Below are positions 8,146 to 12,139 of a DNA stretch of 47,769 nt, piece by piece. Position 1 is the stretch's first letter. Every line of letters starts with the position of its first letter. Origin of the DNA: Hamadaea sp. (lineage in GTDB: Bacteria > Actinomycetota > Actinomycetes > Mycobacteriales > Micromonosporaceae); NCBI RefSeq assembly GCF_013362815.1, contig NZ_JABFVK010000033.1, positions 1 to 47,769 of the forward strand. The letters run 5' to 3'. A program made the translations under genes and the position numbers. A model generated the notes under the pieces. The model was not told where the DNA came from, did no database searches, and worked only from the letters and a program-made list of their open reading frames with translations.

Positions 8146-9945
8146 ATGGCTCATGACCAGTGGACGGCCACGCTCGTGCTGGGCGGCATCCGGTCCGGCA
8201 AGTCCGACTTCGCCGAGACGCTCGCCGCCGAGGCGGCGGCCGGCGGCCCGGTGCGCTACGTGGCGACGGCGCAGACCGATCCCGCCGACGAGGCATGGCA
8301 GCAGCGCATCGAGGCGCACCAGTCCCGGCGCCCGGCCGAGTGGACCACCGAGGAGCTTGAGGACTCCACGGATCTGCTGGTCGCGCTGCGTACGGCGGAA
8401 GCAGGTGAGGTGCTGCTCGTCGACGATCTCGGTGGCTGGGCGACCCGGCTGCTGCCGCTGACCAAGGAGGAGCGCCGGGAGCGGATCGACGCGCTCGGGC
8501 GTTCGGTCGCGGCGTGCCCGGCCAAGGTCGTGCTCGTCAGCCCGGAGGTCGGGCTCAGCCTCGTCCCCGCGACGGAGTCCGGCGCGGACTTCGCCGATCT
8601 GGTCGGGGAGATCAACCAGATCGTGGCGGACGCCACCGAACAGGTCGCCCTGGTCATCGCCGGGCAGACCACCTGGTTGAAACCGCAAGGCGCTCCGGCG
8701 GCCGAGAGCCGGCCGGCCCGCCCGGTGATCACCTCGCAGCCCGCTCAGGCGGTCGAGATGGACGTCCCGGAGGTCATCACGCCGGTCGCGGAGCCCGACT
8801 CCGCTGAGGCGCCGGGCGCGCTCACCGCGCCGACGATGGCGCTGCCGATGATCGCGACCGGGCTGGTCATCCAGGCCAACATGGAGCTGCCGCTGCCGGA
8901 CGAGGAGGCCGAGCGGGACGCCAAGGCCCGGCTCGCCGCGCTGGACCTGCCAGGCTCGGGCTTCGGCAAGCTCGCCAAACCGATCCAGTTCGCCGCGGCG
9001 ACGCAGCGGACGGCGACGCCGCATCCCTGGCGCTCGGTACGCATGATGCTCCTGTACGCCGACCACGAGGGCAACATCGCGGCCGGCGTGGAGCCGGGCG
9101 ACTCCGCGCACTGGGCCGCACAGGCGCGCTCCGGCACCGGCCCGATCGGGCTGCTGGCCGCGCGTACCGGGGCGACCATCCAGGTCGTCGACGCGGCGAC
9201 CGCGGGTGACATCGAATGGGTCGACGCGGCGACGCCCGAGGCCGTGGAGGCGGGGCTACGCCACGGCTGGCGGCTCGCCGAGGAGGCGGTGGACGCCGGG
9301 GTCGACCTCGTCGTGCTGGGCGCCTGCGGCGCGGGTGCGGACACCGTGGCGGCGACCCTCGTCTCGGCGATGACCTCGGGTGAGGTCGCCGCCTTGCTCG
9401 GCCGCCGGGTGAGCGCCGACGGCCGGGTGGACGACAACTCGTGGATGAAGCGTTGCGCCGCCGCTCGCGATGCGCTGAGCCGGCTGCGCAACGACTCGCT
9501 GTCGCCGAAGACGTTGCTGGCCCGCATCGGTGGCGTCGACTTCGCCATCGCGGTCGGCATGCTGCTGGGCGCGACCGCACGGCGTACGCCGGTCATGATC
9601 GACGGGCCGGTCGGGGTGGCTTCCGCCCTGCTCGCCCGGGATCTCGCCGGACAGGTGCGGCACTGGTGCCTGCTGCCCGACGCGGGTGGCGATCCGGCCA
9701 CGATCCAGGGTGCCGACGTCCTCGGCCTCGATCCGTTCCTCGACCTGCGGCTCGGCCTGGGCGAAGGCTCCTCGGCGCTCGCTGCGCTGCCCATCGTCCA
9801 ATCCGCGATCAGCCTCGCCCAGACCGCGATGGCTGCCGGGGCGCCCGCCACCGGACGGGCCACCTTGCCGGAGACGGCTGACGGCGTACCAGCTGAAGAA
9901 GCGGAAGAGAAGGCGGAGATCGATGCCGCCGACGGCCTGGAGTGA
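8146..9945 (+). CDS. cobU/cobT: CobU-CobT fusion, cobinamide kinase plus divergent CobT domain
   Basis: Protein of 599 residues. Residues 1 to about 180 match CobU, the adenosylcobinamide kinase and GTP:adenosylcobinamide-phosphate guanylyltransferase: P-loop LGGIRSGKSDFAE, YVATAQTDPADE, the RIEAHQSRRPAEW stretch with the histidine that carries GMP in the family, and SPEVGLSLVP. A Pro/Ala-rich linker of roughly 80 residues follows. Residues about 265-580 resemble CobT, nicotinate-nucleotide:dimethylbenzimidazole phosphoribosyltransferase, ending with the conserved LGEGSSA. The middle of the CobT domain is unusual: the family motif (E/D)MGIGNTT reads ACGAGADTV and the SHRSxEPGH-type loop reads LLPDAGGDPAT. 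The ATG at 8146 is chosen because the longer open frame upstream crosses palindrome A1 and a leaderless -10 lies 7 nt before it. It overlaps cobS, so the pathway steps are coupled. Confidence 0.85.
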   Translation: MAHDQWTATLVLGGIRSGKSDFAETLAAEAAAGGPVRYVATAQTDPADEAWQQRIEAHQSRRPAEWTTEELEDSTDLLVALRTAEAGEVLLVDDLGGWATRLLPLTKEERRERIDALGRSVAACPAKVVLVSPEVGLSLVPATESGADFADLVGEINQIVADATEQVALVIAGQTTWLKPQGAPAAESRPARPVITSQPAQAVEMDVPEVITPVAEPDSAEAPGALTAPTMALPMIATGLVIQANMELPLPDEEAERDAKARLAALDLPGSGFGKLAKPIQFAAATQRTATPHPWRSVRMMLLYADHEGNIAAGVEPGDSAHWAAQARSGTGPIGLLAARTGATIQVVDAATAGDIEWVDAATPEAVEAGLRHGWRLAEEAVDAGVDLVVLGACGAGADTVAATLVSAMTSGEVAALLGRRVSADGRVDDNSWMKRCAAARDALSRLRNDSLSPKTLLARIGGVDFAIAVGMLLGATARRTPVMIDGPVGVASALLARDLAGQVRHWCLLPDAGGDPATIQGADVLGLDPFLDLRLGLGEGSSALAALPIVQSAISLAQTAMAAGAPATGRATLPETADGVPAEEAEEKAEIDAADGLE

Positions 9946-10669
9946 CGCGCTACGCCTGGCGCTGACGACTTTCACGGTCGCGCCGGTCCGGACCGGCGTC
10001 CTGGACCGGCGCGTGGCCGGGCGGGCGATGGCCCTGGCGCCCTGGCTGGGCGCGCTGCTCGGGGCGCTGCTGGGTGCGGTGCTCGCGGGTCTGCGCGAGG
10101 TGACCGCCGCGCCGATCGCCGGGGCGCTGACCGTGGGTCTGGCCGCGCTGCTGACCCGTGGCCTGCACCTGGACGGGCTCGCGGACACTGTGGACGCCAT
10201 CGGGTCCTATCGCGACCGTGAGCGGGCCTTGCGCATCATGAAGTCGCCCGAGGTCGGCCCGTTCGGTGTGGTCGCGCTCGTGCTGGCGCTGCTGCTCCAG
10301 ACACTCACGCTCGCTCAGGCTCCCTTCTGGACGGTGGTTGCGGCGTTCGCGGCCGGCCGCTGCGCCATCACGCTGGCCTGCGCGCAGGGCATCCCCTCGG
10401 CCCGGCCGGACGGGCTCGGCGCGTTCGTGGCGGGGACGGTGCCGCGGGTGGTCGCGCTGCTCAGCGCACTCGCGGTGGCAGCGCTCGCGATCCCCGCCGT
10501 GCCGGGCCGTCCGTGGCAAGGCCCGGCCGCCGTCGCCCTCGCCCTGCTCGCGGTGCTTCTTCTCCTGTTTCATCTGGTACGCCGACTGGGCGGGATCACC
10601 GGAGACGTCTTGGGCGCGGCGACCGAGATCGCCGTGACGGCGGCCCTGATCGGCTTGACCCTGCACTAG
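9923..10669 (+). CDS. cobS: CobS, cobalamin 5'-phosphate synthase
   Basis: Protein of 248 residues, integral membrane enzyme that joins adenosylcobinamide-GDP and alpha-ribazole (phosphate) in the last part of the cobalamin pathway. The hallmark TRGLHLDGLADTVDAIGS is at residues about 75-93, followed by RALRIMKSPEVGPFGV, and the rest is five or six hydrophobic helices. The ATG is preceded by GGAG and overlaps the end of the CobU-CobT gene by 23 bp in another frame, so translation is coupled. The longer frame starting upstream at 9686 lies inside the fusion gene and is rejected. Confidence 0.93.
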   Translation: MPPTAWSDALRLALTTFTVAPVRTGVLDRRVAGRAMALAPWLGALLGALLGAVLAGLREVTAAPIAGALTVGLAALLTRGLHLDGLADTVDAIGSYRDRERALRIMKSPEVGPFGVVALVLALLLQTLTLAQAPFWTVVAAFAAGRCAITLACAQGIPSARPDGLGAFVAGTVPRVVALLSALAVAALAIPAVPGRPWQGPAAVALALLAVLLLLFHLVRRLGGITGDVLGAATEIAVTAALIGLTLH

Positions 10670-10690
10670 AACACGTGTTCTAATCGACGT
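10655..10690 (+). promoter_or_regulatory. SOS promoter: LexA box within -35/-10, leaderless
   Basis: TTGACC (10655-10660), an 18-nt spacer and TCTAAT (10679-10684) form a good sigma-70-type promoter whose expected start site is the A of the ATG at 10691, 6 nt after the -10. The 16-bp perfect palindrome TAGAACACGTGTTCTA at 10667-10682 lies between the two boxes and overlaps the -10. Its core GAAC-N4-GTTC is the actinobacterial LexA (SOS) operator. The palindrome begins at the stop codon of cobS. Confidence 0.8.
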
Positions 10691-12139
10691 ATGCGATGGC
10701 TCGGCCAAGCTGCTTCTTCAGCTTCACCCTCCCCAGAGTTTCCGGCTGCATCGGCGACCCCACCCCTGCCGCCGATGCAGCCGGGTTTGTTCGACATACC
10801 GGGCGCGGTCGCACGGACGTTCGACACGCCGGGCTTCGCCGGGATGACGTTCTACGAGATCAACGCCAAGTCGCTGCTCAACCGAGTGCCCAGCCAGTCG
10901 CAGGTGCCGTTCGAGTGGACGGTCAACCCCTATCGCGGCTGCTCGCACGCCTGCGTCTACTGCCTCGCGGGCGATACCCAGATCCTGATGGCCGACGGCC
11001 ACACCCGTCCGCTGGCCGAGCTGCGGGTCGGCGACAAGGTCTACGGCACCGTCCGGTTCGGGTCGCGCCGCCGCTACGCGGTGACCGAGGTGCTCGACCA
11101 CTGGATCGCGTACAAGCCCGCGTTCCGGGTGACCCTGGCCGACGGCACCCAGCTCGTGGCGAGCGGCGATCACCGGTTCCTCACGACGAAGGGCTGGCGG
11201 CACGTCGCCGAGGGCGACCGGCTCGCCGGATTCGGTCAGGAACCGCCGGCCGGCCCGCTGGAGGGCGCGTACGTGAGCTCCATCGGCGGTCTCGACGTCG
11301 TGCACGTCGAACCGCTGGAGAAGCGGCAGAACCTGTTCGACATCACCACCGGCTCGGGCGACTTCATCGCCAACGGGGTGGTCAGCCACAACTGCTTCGC
11401 CCGCAACACCCACACCTACCTCGACCTCGACTCGGGGCACGACTTCGACAGCAAGGTAATCGTCAAGGTCAACGCCGGTCAGGTGCTCCGCCGGGAACTG
11501 GCCCGGCCGTCCTGGACCGGCGCGCCGATCGCCATGGGCACCAATGTGGACTGCTATCAGCGGGCCGAGGGCCGCTACGGGCTGATGCGCGAGATCCTGA
11601 CCGCGTTGCGCGACTTCGCGAACCCGTTCTCCATCCTGACCAAGGGCACGTTGATCCTGCGCGACCTCGACCTCCTGAAGCAGGCCGCCGCGGTGACCAC
11701 GGTCCGGCTCGCGCTGTCCATCGGCTTCGTCGACGAAACCCTCTGGCGCACCGTCGAACCGGGTACGCCGAGCCCGCAGCGCCGCCTCGACGTGGTGCGC
11801 CGCTTGTCCGACGCCGGATTCGAGGTCAACGTCCTCATGGCACCGATCCTGCCCGGGCTCACCGACACCGAGGAGTCGATCGGCGAGACCGTTTCGGCGA
11901 TCGCGGCCGCGGGAGCGGCCGGAGTGATGCCGATCCCGCTGCATCTGCGTACCGGGGCGAAGGAGTGGTATGCCGCCTGGCTCGCCCGCAACCACCCCCA
12001 TCTGCTGCCCCGCTACCGTTCGCTGTACGGGTCGCGGGCGTACCTGAGCCAGGATCAGCAACGCGTCATCAGCGCTCGGGTGCGGGCCGCCGCCCGGCGA
12101 TGCGGACTGCTGCCGCCCACTCCCCTGCGTACCGCCTGA
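10691..12139 (+). CDS. SplB-like radical SAM protein (Rv2578c family) with mini-intein
   Basis: Precursor of 482 residues; 338 after removal of a 144-residue intein. The host protein belongs to the Rv2578c group of radical SAM enzymes (COG1533, spore photoproduct lyase-like), thought to be DNA-repair related but without a proven reaction. It starts MRWLGQA as in the mycobacterial protein. Residues Cys84 and Cys88 (RGCSHACVY) plus Cys235, the first residue after the intein (CFARNTH), rebuild the CxxxCxxC motif that holds the [4Fe-4S] cluster. Downstream motifs include MGTNVDCYQRAEG, FSILTKGTLILRD and VLMAPILPGLTD. Expression should be DNA-damage inducible because of the LexA box at 10667-10682. 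The mRNA appears leaderless. Confidence 0.9.
   Translation: MRWLGQAASSASPSPEFPAASATPPLPPMQPGLFDIPGAVARTFDTPGFAGMTFYEINAKSLLNRVPSQSQVPFEWTVNPYRGCSHACVYCLAGDTQILMADGHTRPLAELRVGDKVYGTVRFGSRRRYAVTEVLDHWIAYKPAFRVTLADGTQLVASGDHRFLTTKGWRHVAEGDRLAGFGQEPPAGPLEGAYVSSIGGLDVVHVEPLEKRQNLFDITTGSGDFIANGVVSHNCFARNTHTYLDLDSGHDFDSKVIVKVNAGQVLRRELARPSWTGAPIAMGTNVDCYQRAEGRYGLMREILTALRDFANPFSILTKGTLILRDLDLLKQAAAVTTVRLALSIGFVDETLWRTVEPGTPSPQRRLDVVRRLSDAGFEVNVLMAPILPGLTDTEESIGETVSAIAAAGAAGVMPIPLHLRTGAKEWYAAWLARNHPHLLPRYRSLYGSRAYLSQDQQRVISARVRAAARRCGLLPPTPLRTA
10961..11392 (+). other. Mini-intein in radical SAM cluster motif
   Basis: Residues 91-234 of the host protein. Block A is CLAGDTQILMADG with nucleophile Cys1. 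Block B is SGDHRFL with the conserved His (host residue 161). Blocks F and G end in FIANGVVSHN, giving penultimate His and terminal Asn, followed by Cys+1. At 144 residues there is no room for a LAGLIDADG or HNH homing endonuclease, so this is a mini-intein with a complete splicing domain. Confidence 0.93.

Follow-up and report, generated by a model that had tools for sequence, protein, structure and literature searches.

MoaA is a radical-SAM enzyme that carries a CX3CX2C motif. For the intein of Pyrococcus abyssi MoaA (Callahan et al. 2011), two papers report a native disulfide between Cys-3 and Cys1 as controlling splicing activity (PMC3922620, PMC10663303), and from the Cys-3 spacing we infer that this intein also lies before the third cysteine of its host motif. 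The intein analyzed here shares with it the pairing of Cys-3 with Cys1 and an oxygen-sensitive host enzyme; it differs in host protein and in origin, P. abyssi being an archaeon, and the disulfide and redox response were measured for the MoaA intein, whereas ours is known from sequence. Two mycobacterial inteins are more distant parallels. DnaBi1 of Mycobacterium smegmatis is proposed to sense oxidative stress through its catalytic cysteine (PMC6195587), but it belongs to class 3 and has an internal disulfide, Cys48-Cys118, while ours is class 1 with Cys1 as its only cysteine. The SufB intein of Mycobacterium tuberculosis likewise sits in a protein tied to iron-sulfur clusters (PMC8891592); SufB, however, belongs to cluster assembly, and the host described here is a radical-SAM enzyme, interrupted within its cluster motif. 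Zinc and copper are described as inhibitors of other inteins (PMC10663303).

The locus lies in a 47,769-nucleotide stretch of a Hamadaea sp. contig, referred to below as the window. The NCBIfam model NF038136, ‘intein-containing Rv2578c family radical SAM protein’, describes the same host gene with the same intein; the window holds the short form, which matches the model in two pieces without the model's middle. By this match the window locus is a further example of a class that NCBI already names.

The predicted mini-intein and its host motif

The precursor passes the curated cut-offs of both NF038136 (762 bits, cut-off 700) and NF038135 (496.1 bits, cut-off 430), which places it in the Rv2578c family, and it contains a Radical_SAM domain (PF04055, 49.3 bits, cut-off 29.5). 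The window genome has one match to the family. Directly upstream is a CobS-like gene (PF02654, 160.6 bits; window positions 9686-10669), whose stop codon falls at an SOS-type box. Features of the locus are collected in Table 1.

Table 1. Features of the Rv2578c-family locus, in window coordinates.
Feature	Position	Strand	Evidence
LexA/SOS-type box GAACACGTGTTC	10669..10680	+	10 nt before start codon; same place relative to third-Cys codon in relatives, intein-bearing or not
Gene for intein-containing Rv2578c-family radical-SAM precursor	10691..12139	+	ORF, 482 aa plus stop; NCBIfam match
N-extein M1-Y90, ending ...RGC84-SHA-C88-VY	10691..10960	+	Translation, locus parsing
C84, first Cys of CX3CX2C, position -7	10940..10942	+	Invariant column, 64 sequences
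C88, second Cys of CX3CX2C, position -3, possible Cys1 disulfide partner	10952..10954	+	Invariant column, 64 sequences
Class-1 mini-intein C91-N234, 144 aa, without endonuclease domain	10961..11392	+	NCBIfam, structure-chain match, locus parsing
C91, intein Cys1, also completing precursor CX3CX2C	10961..10963	+	Translation, locus comparison
Block B S-G-D-H, Ser for Thr here and in relatives	11162..11173	+	Locus comparison
Penultimate His and terminal Asn of intein	11387..11392	+	Translation, locus comparison
C-extein C235-A482, first residue Cys+1, the third motif Cys	11393..12136	+	Radical_SAM match; C235 invariant (64 sequences)
Cys+1, C235	11393-11395	+	Translation

The insert was recognized by TIGR01445 (intein_Nterm, 26 bits, cut-off 24.5), and the Pfam Intein_splicing match stayed under its cut-off (27 vs 35.8). 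A PDB chain from a replicative DNA helicase, 4o1r_A, which we take to be a mini-intein, matches residues 91-234, the whole length of the intein (E 3.9e-5). The residues expected of a class-1 intein are present: Cys1 (C91), a block-B [T/S]xxH motif in the form S-G-D-H, where Thr is the usual first residue, the terminal pair HN234, and C235 at +1. A Pfam search of the window protein for LAGLIDADG returned no match at E up to 0.01. The insert is, as predicted from these features, a class-1 mini-intein without a homing endonuclease (HEN-less). A preliminary description of this DNA had proposed a mini-intein that splits a [4Fe-4S] CxxxCxxC motif, and this holds: its span, 10931-11410, encloses the intein at 10961-11392, which precedes the third cysteine of CX3CX2C.

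To place the locus among its relatives, 141 loci were compared: that of the window genome, 80 that were the best 80 of at least 573 matches, and 60 made up of the best 30 of each of two listings. All but two (L023, L138) could be parsed, and L135, which duplicates the window locus, was left out. Among the 138 loci kept are the window (L001) and L002, 100% identical in sequence and thus not independent; because best-matching rows were taken, the sample leans to close kin, and broken inteins could escape such a choice. In this sample 63 loci are empty, 62 hold large inteins (273-355 aa) and 13 hold mini-inteins (143-171 aa). Every one of the 75 inteins occupies a single insertion point, ahead of the third cysteine, and has Cys1, a terminal His-Asn pair and Cys+1. 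The block-B pattern is matched by 74; in the remaining one, L121, the same S-G-D-H is followed by Tyr. Residue -1 is Tyr in all 138 loci. Since 75 loci share insertion point, Cys1, His-Asn and Cys+1, the intein match is not due to chance, and the comparison of orthologs that had been suggested as a check finds the insertion point fixed in the 75 intein-bearing loci alongside 63 that are intein-free. The reading of the insert as part of a two-domain protein, or as a mis-assembled insertion, is therefore refuted at the sequence level, and we give it next to no credence: nothing was found in its favor, the same insert with intact splicing residues occupies the same codon in 75 loci from several collections, and 63 sites are cleanly empty.

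Within the host, C84, C88 and C235 are invariant in an alignment of 64 sequences. A profile of 16 empty homologs reaches structures of spore photoproduct lyase weakly (E 0.007-0.0099), with the cysteines aligned; as the cysteine-containing stretch taken by itself is not significant, the predicted [4Fe-4S] binding rests on family membership. C235 directly follows N234, and all 138 loci read C-x3-C-x2-C once spliced, in agreement with the proposal that Cys+1 supplies the third motif cysteine. The companion claim, that for want of a third ligand the enzyme cannot be active until it is spliced, is not supported in that form: the unspliced precursor reads CSHACVYC, with C91 at the third-cysteine position, and the same holds in 75 of 75 intein loci. 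With intein Cys1 at equal spacing, the precursor could in principle bind a cluster or a metal. Precursor activity is nevertheless unlikely, as 144 aa would part the motif from the remaining barrel.

Mobility, endonuclease decay and traces at the insertion site

We consider it likely that the HEN-less mini-intein is the vertically inherited relic of a homing intein, one that has time and again invaded a single site in actinomycetotal radical-SAM genes of the Rv2578c and PA0069 types, and that it must splice for a mature enzyme to form, with gating of splicing possible. Such selfish evolution is suggested by endonucleases that are intact, decayed or absent, by 19 changes between intein presence and absence on the best extein tree (126 rows), and by an intein shared with the PA0069 family. 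Several points count against this reading. Of the 19 changes, no more than 6 to 8 are required by well-supported branches, and the site is not the gene's most conserved DNA, as a simple homing view would want (it ranks 457th of 847 windows of the gene, and 835th of 847 in the empties, so that conservation was rejected as the explanation of the site). A useful switch would likewise give long-lived endonuclease-free forms. Finally, no phage or plasmid carrier was found: 8 records matched in a phage collection and 40 among plasmids, none of them covering 80% or more of the query, and viral contigs yielded no confirmed relative.

Intein-model matches above the cut-off occur in 62 of 121 genomes of the window's taxonomic family (104 with any match) and in 14 of 396 genomes of a phylum-wide draw (115 with any match); both counts are lower bounds, as rows below the cut-off can hold an intein (e.g., L131-L138). 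Among five large inteins scanned, Pfam LAGLIDADG_3 is above its cut-off in three and not listed in the other two. By a strict pattern both LAGLIDADG motifs are kept in 26 of 56 large Rv2578c-family inteins, the rest being decayed or outside the pattern; a looser pattern finds them in 34 of 62 large inteins, PA0069-type loci included. The mini-intein state changes 8 times on the best extein tree (5 forced by supported branches), and the mini and large states change 6 times on the intein tree (1 forced). Independent endonuclease losses are likely in view of these trees, with one forced change on the intein tree vs five on the extein tree. In the pair L013/L020, dS is 0.068 in the intein vs 0.267 in the exteins, which points to transfer of the intein.

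Six loci (L131-L134, L136, L137) are PA0069-family radical-SAM genes with the same intein at the same site, and the NCBI model name covers only Rv2578c. Three of them, L131, L133 and L137, score 448.5, 455.6 and 469.9 bits with the NCBIfam model of the PA0069 family (cut-off 360). Between PA0069 and Rv2578c loci the median tree path, taken from a rough tree of few columns, is 6.09 for exteins and 1.34 for inteins, while Rv2578c inteins are 1.23 apart among themselves. Given that the inteins are this close across such distant exteins, it was probably at this homologous site that the intein passed from one family to the other.

In Hamadaea the mini form is kept: in four of four genomes examined, the match to the intein model falls into two pieces and skips the middle of the model. 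Intein dN/dS is 0.18 (L001/L003) and 0.33 (L001/L004), with intein dS near extein dS. These values indicate purifying selection on the Hamadaea mini-intein, which appears to have lost its endonuclease and to be vertically inherited. The pattern fits an element whose loss must restore the gene exactly; a benefit is compatible with it too.

The flanks of the window intein have ordinary codons. Intein-free loci (L038-L110 and others) show a sharp synonymous recoding to AT-ending, rare codons between codons -12 and +12. In 50 intein-free loci of the Micromonospora group, GC3 drops from a mean of 0.92 to 0.52 and 0.61 over the six codons flanking the site on either side, compared with 0.69 and 0.89 in 19 intein-bearing loci of the group. 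AGA or AGG encodes the Arg at +3 in 37 of these 50 empties and in 0 of the 19 intein alleles (Fisher p 7.5e-9, kinship ignored). If a dip is defined as GC3 <0.8 in 16 codons, it is present over all parsed loci in 45/63 empties, 1/13 minis and 6/6 PA0069-type loci, and among large inteins in 20 of the 26 with both endonuclease motifs and 4 of the 30 without. In other genera it was seen in g23 (4/4), g26 (1/1), g9 (1/1), g43 (1/1) and g32 (1/3 with GC3 <0.8), and was absent from g7 (5 loci), g35 (7) and g11 (3). Genus g23 has the dip yet zero intein carriers among its four genomes, which argues against a simple endonuclease-exposure reading, and intein presence was not significantly associated with the dip once kinship was corrected for (6 supported pairs, median p 1). 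The dip is possibly a synonymous escape from homing, or else reflects flanks dragged in by co-conversion. Two loci have flanks that look like co-conversion: L013 differs from its nearest empty allele by 18.5% in 81 nt at the site and by 1.9% elsewhere, and L111 from an empty allele by 14.8% vs 3.1%. Mean divergence at the site and in the rest of the gene is 0.139/0.073 for intein-vs-empty pairs and 0.080/0.040 for empty-vs-empty pairs; since even two empties differ about twice as much at the site as elsewhere, the scar is clear in few pairs only.

The SOS-type box and possible gating of splicing

The SOS-type box that had been associated with the gene is present, and across the 134 loci surveyed (four others had too little upstream DNA) it is found with at most one mismatch in the corresponding upstream stretch in 122, vs 2 of 130 in a control stretch. 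By allele, this amounts to 62/63 empty, 48/59 large and 12/12 mini loci. Five of the six PA0069-type intein loci lack the box (three mismatches at best), and L136 has it with one mismatch at a different distance. Since 62 of 63 empties have the box and the PA0069-type intein loci mostly lack it, box and intein are separable. The box would place the precursor under LexA control. The two-level switch that had been built on it, with damage inducing the precursor and redox or metal state permitting its activation, is weakened by the independent occurrence of box and intein and by the frequency of intein-free alleles in close relatives, and as a claim it exceeds the evidence. The window contains a second match to GAACNNNNGTTC, GAACGGCGGTTC at 574-585; a pair of matches is not unusual by chance (14 of 100 shuffles). 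The LexA regulon of Streptomyces venezuelae includes a radical-SAM gene, vnz_31145, which has been described as a UV-damage repair relative (PMC9380542); it is a candidate counterpart of the window gene.

C88 stands at position -3 relative to Cys1 (C91), and this Cys-3/Cys1 pair occurs in 75 of 75 intein loci. The control set comprised 87 actinobacterial inteins (30 loci and 57 further listed matches, leaving out radical-SAM matches and those that do not start at model position 1); Cys1 is present in all 87 and Cys-3 in 4. The four (L170, L206, L213, L219) all follow QCSA, the same geometry in another host protein, which we assume is perhaps ribonucleotide reductase. Neither invariance is usable as evidence of a switch: Cys1 was rejected because the 87 other inteins have it as well, and Cys-3 because all 63 empty alleles carry it. 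Here Cys-3 is forced by the host CX3CX2C, so its conservation does not indicate that a switch was selected for.

Oxidative gating of the window intein is plausible, given a single close precedent, that of MoaA from P. abyssi. As a redox switch, a C88(-3)-C91(1) disulfide would hold the precursor under oxidizing stress and reduction would release it; we think this improbable, and equally so the adaptive view attached to it, in which maturation of an oxygen-sensitive enzyme waits until its cluster can survive while SOS control sets the amount. The -3/+1 geometry is that of the MoaA intein, whose native Cys-3/Cys1 disulfide is reported (PMC3922620, PMC10663303), Cys-3 is rare elsewhere (4/87) and universal here (75/75), and because the window intein has no cysteine beyond Cys1, the partners in a disulfide would be extein cysteines. 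Set against this, CX3CX2C itself demands Cys-3, as the 63 empties show, intein-free alleles are frequent in close kin, and the intein evolves as a mobile element does. We regard as still more doubtful a metal or cluster switch in which C84, C88 and Cys1 bind Fe-S, Zn or Cu in the precursor and so tie up the splicing nucleophile: the full CX3CX2C is there in 75/75 precursors and zinc and copper are reported to inhibit other inteins (PMC10663303), but Cys1 is the rule regardless, as in the 87 controls.

Both ideas can be combined in a precursor that acts as a three-state thiol sensor, with C84/C88/C91 bound to metal or cluster (blocked), C88 and C91 in a disulfide (blocked), or all free and reduced (splicing). 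We rate this as rather unlikely, below the disulfide and above the metal switch. If true, the ligand role would be handed from Cys1 to Cys+1 on splicing, and maturation would be licensed by the very chemistry that the cluster needs, atop SOS induction.

Proposed maturation and wider meaning

Under the homing-remnant reading, which we prefer, the precursor would be made under a LexA-type box. Intact residues point to the standard class-1 steps: Cys1 (C91) would attack the Y90-C91 bond, the chain would then move to Cys+1 (C235), and cyclization of Asn234 would join the exteins, leaving C84-x3-C88-x2-C235 for a [4Fe-4S] cluster. Splicing would be needed for mature enzyme and is probably constitutive in the reducing cytosol. 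Because the site precedes the third cysteine of CX3CX2C, C88 falls automatically at -3 of Cys1; oxidation (a C88-C91 disulfide) or capture of metal by C84/C88/C91 could for that reason stall splicing, as a chemical by-product.

The Rv2578c-family intein touches the wider question of whether inteins are mere parasites or also regulators. It offers a clean natural experiment, with one site in a cluster motif, alleles that are intact, decayed, mini or empty and often sit in nearly identical hosts, and the same SOS-type box across all four allele kinds; its cysteine geometry has been described for one archaeal intein under redox control. If the motif of the precursor binds metal or forms a disulfide, this would be, to our knowledge, the first bacterial splicing nucleophile that doubles as a stand-in cluster ligand.
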